A DNA stretch of 64,000 bases from Pirellula sp. SH-Sr6A (GTDB lineage: Bacteria; Planctomycetota; Planctomycetia; Pirellulales; Pirellulaceae), in NCBI RefSeq assembly GCF_001610875.1, contig NZ_CP011272.1:5437988-5501987 (forward strand). Direction: 5' to 3'. Positions 42,990 to 44,996 of this stretch are shown one piece after another (the first letter of the stretch is position 1; each line of letters starts with the position of its first letter). A model generated the notes under the pieces. That model saw nothing but the letters and a program-made list of their open reading frames with translations. It was not told the DNA's origin and did not search any database. A program made the translations under genes and the position numbers.

Positions 42990-44996
42990 CTATTCGTCGG
43001 TGTCGGCGATTAGTTCGCTCGGCTCGGAAGTGCTCGTTTGCGCGATGACCGGACGGATCGATTGAGCTGGATCTACTCGAACGATCTGGCCATCGAACAT
43101 TTCGACAAATTGCTGAACGATGGGATTGGTCATCGCTTTGCGAATCAATTGGGATTGAGGAACACTCGGTCGGAACTCCTCGACAACGGGTGCCGGCGCT
43201 TTGCTCTCAACATGCGGGGCGACCTCATCGGTGAGAGTGAATTCAAGAACTGCTTCGACGCGGAATTGGTCAGCAAGAGAGCTTGTGAGCTTTCTGGAAT
43301 TGTCCGCAGTTTGGAAATAATCGATCGCAAATCGACCTTCCTTGGCAACGAAAGCTCTCCATTTTCCTTTGTCAGCGACCTGGACACGGGTGATCATGTT
43401 GACGCATTCCACAATCAATCCACCGATCGATTGCGCTGCGGCTCGCAGTTGATGCAGGGGAGTGTCCGCGACGTTCGTATCGGAAGGATTTTTAGGAGTC
43501 GGTTCCCCCTCCTTCGACACGGACAGGGCTGCGGTTTGGTCGTTCGCTTGTGTCGCGGTCGTCGGCGAAGTCGCAGCGGCGGTCAGTGCGGCGGGTTTCT
43601 CGGTCCCGGGCGATGGTTCGTTTCTCGAAGGGAGCGTGGCTCCCGTTACGGTCTCATCTTTTTTTTTTGCTTCGGTCGATTCCGATGCTGCAGCGGAGGC
43701 AGGTTTTTGTTGCGAGGAACCTGTGCTTGGAACAACTGGCTGCGCTGGAGTTGCAGGCTTCGACGATCCTGCAGGAGGCGTTGGTAGTGCCGTCGTGGTA
43801 TGAACGGGCGGCCGGGGGGGAGGGAGGGATTGCCCCGACGCCAGGGCCTTAACCAAGTCTGTGAGGGCCTGCAGATCTTGAAGCTGACAAATTTGGACGA
43901 TGGCGATTTCGACGAGTACACGGCTCTGGACGCTGTGCCTCATCTTGACGATTGTTTCATCCAAAATCTGAATCGCAGCCATCAGCGAGGCGACGCCCCA
44001 TTGTTGTCCCCAGGTTCGCAATGGCTCGAGACTGGATGGATTCGCGGTTTTGATAAGGTCGCTACCGCACCCGACCGTCACGACCATCATGTCCCGCAGA
44101 TAACCAAGAAGTTGTTCGGCGAGCTGACCGACGTCGACTCCTTCTCCTGCTGCGACGTTCAATTCGTCGAGGGCTCCGGCCGCATCGCGTTGAATCATTT
44201 TGGATGCGAACGAAGCCAGTCTCGTTTCGTCGGCTGTTCCAAGCATCGCATGCACATCGGATACGGTGATCCGATTACCGCTAAAGCTGAGCAGTTGTTC
44301 CAGTAGGGACTGGCTGTCACGCATGGAGCCTGCAGCGCGGCGAGCGATGATCTGCAGTGCGGCTTCGTCTGCTTCGGTACCCTCGTTTTCGCAAATGTAT
44401 TGAAGCCGCCCCAAAATCTGATCGGTATGAACGGGGGGGAAATCAAAACGTTGGCACCGGGACAATACCGTGATCGGCATCTTTTCTGGGTCCGTGGTGC
44501 AGAAGATGAACTTCACATGTCCAGGCGGTTCCTCCAGCGTCTTCAACAATGCGTTGAACGCCTGGGTTGTCAGCATGTGGACTTCGTCGATGATGTAGAT
44601 CTTGTACGGAGATCGGCTGGGACGAACTGCAGCGTTGGCGCGGAGCTGTCGAATTTCATCGATCCCACGATTGCTCGCGCCATCGATCTCGATGACATCC
44701 ATATCCTCACCCGAGTCGATCGCTTGGGCGATGTCGGATTGAGGGTCAAATTCTCCGTCAGCGCTCGCGGAAGCATTCAACGCCTTCGCGAAAATGCGGG
44801 CGGTACTGGTTTTTCCAACCCCCCTCGCCCCGGTAAAGAGATACGCATGTCCGACCCGGTTCGTATGGATGGCATTGAGCAGCGCCTGGGCTACCGTCGA
44901 CTGCCCTACCAATTCGGAGAAGGTTTTCGGCCGGTACCTACGTGCGACGACCGTGTATTTCTGATTTCCGGTCGTAGCATCCAAGGGAGTTTCCAT
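42990..44996 (-). CDS. dnaX: DNA polymerase III subunits gamma and tau
   Basis: The protein has 668 residues. The AAA+ clamp-loader core is clear: RYRPKTFSELVGQ, Walker A GARGVGKTS near residue 57, Walker B YIIDEVHML, sensor 1 IFCTTDPEKMPITVLSRC and the SRC Arg finger. The zinc module, which in most DnaX proteins holds four Cys (residues about 73-95), is replaced by NASASADGEFDPQSDIAQAID with no Cys. A Pro/Ala/Ser/Thr-rich linker (residues 395-500) leads to a C-terminal tau-type domain. A run of ten A residues at 43659-43668 (Lys444-446) could produce a truncated gamma by slippage. It is convergent with ruvA. Confidence 0.95.
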   Translation of the reverse strand: METPLDATTGNQKYTVVARRYRPKTFSELVGQSTVAQALLNAIHTNRVGHAYLFTGARGVGKTSTARIFAKALNASASADGEFDPQSDIAQAIDSGEDMDVIEIDGASNRGIDEIRQLRANAAVRPSRSPYKIYIIDEVHMLTTQAFNALLKTLEEPPGHVKFIFCTTDPEKMPITVLSRCQRFDFPPVHTDQILGRLQYICENEGTEADEAALQIIARRAAGSMRDSQSLLEQLLSFSGNRITVSDVHAMLGTADETRLASFASKMIQRDAAGALDELNVAAGEGVDVGQLAEQLLGYLRDMMVVTVGCGSDLIKTANPSSLEPLRTWGQQWGVASLMAAIQILDETIVKMRHSVQSRVLVEIAIVQICQLQDLQALTDLVKALASGQSLPPPRPPVHTTTALPTPPAGSSKPATPAQPVVPSTGSSQQKPASAAASESTEAKKKDETVTGATLPSRNEPSPGTEKPAALTAAATSPTTATQANDQTAALSVSKEGEPTPKNPSDTNVADTPLHQLRAAAQSIGGLIVECVNMITRVQVADKGKWRAFVAKEGRFAIDYFQTADNSRKLTSSLADQFRVEAVLEFTLTDEVAPHVESKAPAPVVEEFRPSVPQSQLIRKAMTNPIVQQFVEMFDGQIVRVDPAQSIRPVIAQTSTSEPSELIADTDE
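43659..43668 (-). promoter_or_regulatory. Ten-A slippery run in dnaX, candidate programmed frameshift or transcriptional slippage site
   Basis: On the coding strand GC-A(10)-GATGAG encodes Ala-Lys-Lys-Lys-Asp-Glu. A minus-one ribosomal shift, or one extra A in the transcript, makes the next codons AGA TGA, giving a 447-residue product. A shift the other way meets TAA four codons later. E. coli gamma has 431 residues and Thermus dnaX uses an A9 run. Confidence 0.65.

Follow-up and report, generated by a model that had tools for sequence, protein, structure and literature searches.

The window, by which we mean the whole 64-kb stretch of DNA analysed, carries on its minus strand a gene for the tau/gamma subunit of DNA polymerase III, dnaX (Table 1). 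Its open reading frame matches the TIGR02397 dnaX_nterm profile with 422 bits, against a cut-off of 250, and the Pfam families DNA_pol3_delta2, DNAX_ATPase_lid and DNA_pol3_gamma3 are recognized in the protein, with domains I-III ending by residue 384. Among solved structures, a chain designated tau (8gj0_B, 643 aa) aligns with the DnaX family profile at E 2.2e-108, and the best named relative of the window protein among the matches listed comes from Aporhodopirellula aestuarii, with 66% identity. The domain layout was taken from a structure model built from 31 aligned sequences, namely the window protein and 30 hand-picked loci (alignment A1); with a mean pLDDT of 70.6, a pTM of 0.45 and much of residues 1-100 at or below 60, the model was used for layout only. 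In this predicted structure pLDDT is below 50 at residues 399-416, 421-445 and 447-508, and a second confident fold follows, with values of 92-96 in the blocks covering residues 511-590 and lower values at 591-610. Over 13 relatives (of the 20 in the genus that are informative), the identity of the core to the window protein is 0.80, that of residues 525-642 is 0.37, and that of the linker is 0.19 before and 0.18 after the run of A's described below. The window protein and 22 other genus loci have no cysteine at approximately residues 55-99 (motif script), a stretch which we take to be the usual site of the clamp-loader zinc module; among 106 other family loci, it is free of cysteine in 28 and holds four to five in 63.

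Table 1. Features of the dnaX locus, in window coordinates
Feature	Position	Strand	Basis or remark
dnaX, DNA polymerase III tau/gamma subunit, 668 aa, predicted tau	42990..44996	minus	TIGR02397 dnaX_nterm and Pfam
Clamp-loader core, domains I-III, residues 1-386, common to both predicted products	43839..44996	minus	Pfam to residue 384; core helices in the model extend to 386
Linker holding the run, residues 387-509, poorly conserved, mostly low-confidence	43470..43838	minus	pLDDT and identity
A10 slippery run, codons GCA AAA AAA AAA (A443-K446)	43659..43668	minus	plus strand shows ten T's
TGA, -1-frame stop, reached with one extra A in the mRNA; predicted 447-aa product	43654..43656	minus	
TAA, +1-frame stop, reached with one A fewer or two A's more in the mRNA; predicted 449-aa product	43646..43648	minus	
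Hairpin (perfect 6-bp stem, 3-nt loop) 14 nt past the run	43630..43644	minus	sequence
Folded C-terminal domain, approximately residues 510-634, carried by the predicted full-length product only	43095..43469	minus	pLDDT and identity

In the middle of the low-confidence stretch of the model (approximately residues 399-508), the coding strand reads GCA AAA AAA AAA GAT, for A443, K444-K446 and D447. The initial annotation had placed a run of ten A's encoding Lys444-446 exactly here, and had described immediate stops in both shifted frames, with a 447-residue product in the -1 frame. The sequence agrees on each point: in the -1 frame the run is followed by AGA TGA, a stop after one codon, and in the +1 frame by ATG AGA CCG TAA, a stop after three codons. 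The predicted short proteins would end in ...KKKR (447 aa) and ...MRP (449 aa). The zero frame stays open for 222 codons past the run, and tau is encoded in a single uninterrupted frame. According to the model, a protein ending at these stops would retain the core and about 60 residues of the linker, and would be without the C-terminal domain. The three lysines of the run are identical to the window protein at 0.92 in the 13 genus relatives, and K445 and K446 are near-invariant (at least 90%) in alignment A1 amid an otherwise unconserved linker.

The run is the only homopolymer of at least nine nucleotides in the window, and the 6.53-Mb genome has 10 sites with at least nine A's on either strand, two of which are A10. 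The other A10/T10 site (G000:C1:6313492-6313501) is a T-run that lies early in an open frame of 268 codons. Four A8 matches occur in the window, three of them within the dnaX run, where 3.75 are expected. Within the window by itself this is a weak excess; the case for the run rests on its conservation.

Conservation was examined at the level of the genus, the family and the class. The genus search left 4 of 27 genomes without a match at E<=1e-100 and gave 22 other genus loci. The family search left 7 of 119 genomes without a match, with the fragments G054 and G084 set aside, and the class search covered 79 genomes, its own-family loci (L223-L228 and L233-L235) being excluded from the class counts. 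Four loci end before the run region and are uninformative (L017, L025, L038 and L214), leaving 193 of 197. To judge from the named records whose DnaX is most similar, the organisms are presumably planctomycetes. Runs of at least nine A's were found in 164 of the 193 informative loci: in 21/21 of the genus, in 94/104 of the rest of the family and in 49/68 from ten further families of the class. Every informative genus locus, 21 in all (the window and 20 of the 22 relatives), has a run of exactly ten, and two of them, L021 and L022, have A10 twice each. When the longest A-run of each locus is taken (n=193), 28 loci have 3-7 A's, one has 8, 69 have 9, 93 have 10 and two (L198 and L201) have 11, and T-runs in the same loci show no peak comparable to that at A9-A10. 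Runs occur in nine families of one class; in the class sample they were found in 2/2 loci of family f3, 1/1 of f4, 1/2 of f5, 11/19 of f6, 18/19 of f7, 13/16 of f8, 2/2 of f9 and 1/1 of f10, and in 0/3 of each of f2 and f11.

Among the best 80 of 593 named matches, a run of at least nine A's is present in 12 of the 17 records whose titles name Planctomycetota or one of its subgroups and in 5 of the remaining 63; records from Aporhodopirellula, Schlesneria, Gemmata, Phycisphaerae and Phycisphaerales are among the planctomycete-titled ones with a run, that of Aporhodopirellula aestuarii (L063) being A10. Four of the five other records in this best-80 set (L080, L112, L124, L135 and L139) are titled Ignavibacteria, Ignavibacteriae or Bacteroidetes, and in L112 the run is placed near the C-terminus. 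Four named records lie at a contig edge: L067, in which the run is still visible, L079, L098 and L106. The named set may overlap with the others (L073 and L289 are alike at the run), and the sets are not additive.

The run is absent at a length of nine or more from 29 of the 193 informative loci (10 in the family and 19 in the class, one being an A8), including all three loci of each of families f2 and f11 of the class and the four fetched loci of g18, a genus of the family. Gamma would thus not be universal in this group. None of the four g18 loci (L174, L177, L179 and L182) has an A-run, and all have the heptamer GGGAAAG at residues 387-388, which makes them a natural contrast group. Apart from this shared site, other heptamers of the type X_XXY_YYZ are scattered in the 29 run-less loci.

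A second line of evidence concerns the stops. Stop statistics were obtained for 111 of the 118 genus and family runs, those in which the zero frame stays open; L015, L159, L198, L220 and L221 (zero frame open for less than 50 codons), L039, which runs off its contig, and the second run (A8) of L196 were excluded. A stop falls within 10 codons in the -1 frame after 110 of these runs, in the +1 frame after 100 and in both frames after 99, compared with 31%, 30% and 9% (8.9%), respectively, at codon boundaries elsewhere in these genes. With only the first run of each locus counted, both frames are stopped within 10 codons in 20/20 genus, 79/90 family and 41/49 class loci. The loci are related and their counts not independent, a dependence that thinning to less than 70% core identity can only reduce; in the thinned set both stops lie within 10 codons in 49/58 loci, where 5000 null draws average 5.2 and never exceed 15, and within 5 codons in 38/58, where the null draws average 1.6 and reach at most 7. 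One shifted frame remains open for more than 10 codons, and for up to 108, after 12 of the 111 genus and family runs, and the same holds for 8/49 in the class. The zero frame stays open for at least 50 codons past the run, or to the end of the contig, in 159 of the 164 loci. The initial annotation had proposed that relatives be examined for both the run and the stops, and both prove to be conserved.

Could the run be without function, either as a lysine-rich patch tolerated in a free linker or as an assembly artefact? The poor conservation of the linker and its low confidence in the model would suit this reading. Against it, shuffling the codons after the core, with the run codons kept in the pool, yields at least nine A's in an expected 1.97 of 190 loci, compared with 161 of 190 observed (three of the 193 loci, with less than 40 codons after the core, were skipped). 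Stops are moreover enriched in both shifted frames, and the run is seen across many separate assemblies, including the single-contig genomes G032 (L047) and G036 (L042). We therefore regard absence of function as very improbable. The genus, whose informative loci all keep exactly A10, is old: core amino acid identity to the window is 0.75-0.86 and fourfold-site identity 26-36%, which is approximately chance, the fourfold sites being saturated. Lysine codons outside the runs are AAA in 233 and AAG in 238 cases.

The run could also act at the level of DNA. A homopolymer of 10 is mutable in principle, and replication slippage in such a contingency tract would produce phase variation, with the short form confined to subpopulations. 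Run length does differ between species, as the A11 of L198 and L201 illustrates. Arguing against this are the uniform length of ten throughout the informative genus loci, the zero frame that remains open past nearly all runs, and the near stops in both shifted frames, which fit two standing products better than on/off switching. It is hard to credit as the explanation of the run.

What, then, is conserved: the encoded lysines or the homopolymer? A core-protein tree of 197 loci (FastTree) implies at least 16 changes in run presence, at least 26 in run length and at least 25 in codon phase, counts that are minima and stand without a shuffled-label control. These repeated changes of codon phase indicate that it is the homopolymer that is kept and not a lysine motif. 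Conservation at the protein level was accordingly rejected, as both phase and encoded residues vary while the homopolymer persists. In 79 of 117 genus and family runs only two whole in-frame AAA codons are present. This bears on the sliding of ribosomes on iterated AAA codons, a process described in PMC4363877, by which ribosomes would enter several frames and the two stops would end translation. Sliding accounts for stops in both frames and would profit from them, but the number of whole AAA codons is often down to two while the length of the run stays at 9-11, and codon phase is free to change. We consider sliding an improbable origin of the short form.

The other ribosomal candidate is a -1 shift like that known from E. 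coli dnaX. It would take place on an A_AAA_AAA inside the run, perhaps with help from the hairpin, and would give the 447-residue protein. In its favour are the -1 stop one codon away in the window, the near presence of such a stop behind all but one of the 111 runs, and the hairpin itself. The 60-nt downstream fold of the window stands at percentile 0.25 of its own gene. The signals expected of the E. coli system are nevertheless not enriched across the 111 genus and family runs. The folding energy of the 60 nt downstream has a mean percentile of 0.513 among 60-nt stretches of the same genes, and 14 of the 111 fall in the most stable 10%. Shine-Dalgarno-like sequences precede 8 of the 111 runs, where 10.6 are expected, and none is visible just before the run of the window. 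A_AAA_AAG stands in frame at the end of 15 of the 111 runs, and is absent from the window run (nnA AAA AAA AAA GAT). The hairpin was thus discarded as a general frameshift stimulator, and because stable structure shows no trend in the relatives, it is probably not part of the signal in the window either.

Further points weigh against a -1 frameshift. In E. coli, according to PMC5009743, A_AAA_AAA is much less shift-prone than A_AAA_AAG. An A7 would suffice for the heptamer, yet A7-A8 are nearly absent and A9-A10 dominate. Stops in the +1 frame are enriched as well. Finally, the window genome encodes tRNA-Lys with both UUU and CUU anticodons, and PMC5009743 mentions the second tRNA-Lys of Thermus as a possible reason for slippage over frameshifting. 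A dense tRNA array of approximately 5 kb (G000:C1:6053989-6058767) includes both Lys UUU and Lys CUU. As with sliding, we think it unlikely that -1 frameshifting explains the run.

Judging from the sequence, two proteins, one long and one short, are very probably made from dnaX, as the initial annotation had held, and the conserved run and stops support this. In our opinion the A10 is probably a programmed transcriptional-slippage site like that of Thermus dnaX, by which a gamma-like protein would be made in addition to tau. RNA polymerase would realign on the run and produce dnaX mRNAs that differ in their number of A's. Transcripts with 10 or 10+3n A's would be translated into the 668-residue, tau-like protein; the others would meet an immediate stop in either shifted frame and give gamma-like proteins of 447-449 residues, consisting of the clamp-loader core and part of the linker without the C-terminal domain. 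We infer in vivo slippage by the polymerase, the ratio of the products and a short form that works in clamp loading.

Several observations lead us to favour slippage over the ribosomal mechanisms. The sharp threshold at nine A's matches the length of the RNA:DNA hybrid, whereas the ribosomal A_AAA_AAA needs seven; PMC5009743 and PMC1088944 give 9-10 bp for the hybrid and describe slippage on nine A's or T's. Slippage is also favoured by the freedom of codon phase, with most runs holding two whole AAA codons only, by the early stops in the +1 frame, by the lack of enrichment of E. coli-type stimulators and by the presence of both tRNA-Lys species.

A few loci depart from the usual layout. In five (L015, L159, L198, L220 and L221) the zero frame itself stops within 20 codons of the run. 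A shifted frame continues for 277 codons in L159, 221 in L220 and 196 in L198, reminiscent of a reversed layout in which tau depends on recoding, and such continuation is expected if slippage can serve either frame. In L221 the shifted frame continues for 54 codons, and in L015 all three frames stop within 16 codons; L015 may be broken or misassembled, and single cases of a frame change at the run could be explained by assembly errors in the homopolymer. Eight loci (L021, L022, L217, L247, L249, L250, L282 and L283) carry two runs of at least nine A's in one linker, which differ in codon phase in L021, L022 and L217 and are nearly adjoining and in the same phase in the others. These double runs give the impression that the gain of a new run precedes the loss of the old one. 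In L127, a record titled Phycisphaerales bacterium HKST-UBA15, the zero frame closes near residue 393, at CTA AAA AAA GCG TGA, with an A7 only; the locus may encode a short DnaX or else have its layout reversed, with a ribosomal shift.

With somewhat less assurance, we lean towards a broader view: planctomycetes of one class, a deep branch of the bacteria, together with examples titled as a second class, standingly make a gamma-like DnaX by slippage, with the run under selection to stay at 9-11 A's. The cassette would be blind to frame, shifting its phase, being duplicated and replaced within the linker, and occasionally flipping in such a way that tau becomes the product of slippage.

What would this mean for gamma? 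Whether it does anything in the cell was long disputed, and PMC5009743 relates that it is now assigned to the holoenzyme of E. coli. According to a 2012 review (PMC3290774), the majority of bacteria, enterobacteria and Thermus apart, lack a dnaX frameshift signature and may not make gamma. A slippage run and stops in both frames, conserved in a large planctomycete clade that also shows losses, are evidence from natural selection that the short form is useful, and the many species pairs with and without the run offer natural tests of that usefulness. If gamma is indeed standingly made by slippage in this clade, this would argue that it matters to replication or repair in nature well beyond the relatives of E. 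coli and Thermus. There is also a caution for annotation, in that frame changes at the dnaX run should not by default be taken for sequencing errors or pseudogenes.

This kind of site is already known from Thermus dnaX and from the poly-A dnaX genes of PMC3711429. Among the titles and abstract openings listed in a literature search, none concerned slippage in planctomycete dnaX. What appears to be new, as far as these papers show, is how widely the site occurs in planctomycetes and how it behaves in evolution.

One close parallel is the A9 of Thermus thermophilus dnaX, with which, according to PMC5009743 and PMC1088944, the planctomycete genes share an A-run in the mRNA-sense strand, tau in a single open frame and near stops in both non-zero frames. 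The planctomycete runs differ in being mostly A10 or A9, in changing codon phase and in their spread over nine families of one class. For dnaX genes split into two open frames, Antonov et al. (2013) inferred transcriptional realignment on poly-A runs; that report counts 17 genes, nine with 10 A's and three with 9, 8 and 7 (PMC3711429). In those genes tau needs recoding, whereas planctomycete tau usually lies in one frame. Their reversed layout, with a zero-frame stop directly after the run, is not found in the window and is resembled only in the single loci L159, L220 and L198, and perhaps L221. The -1 frameshift of E. coli dnaX concerns the same gene and a similar place, gives a short product bearing the core, and has its likeness in the window's -1 stop after one codon; unlike in E. 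coli, A_AAA_AAG, a Shine-Dalgarno-like sequence and downstream structure are not enriched across the planctomycete relatives, and +1-frame stops are kept as well. Poly(A) sliding, as presented in PMC4363877, has iterated AAA codons and out-of-frame stops in common with the planctomycete genes; the latter, by contrast, keep the length of the A-run and not the number of AAA codons.
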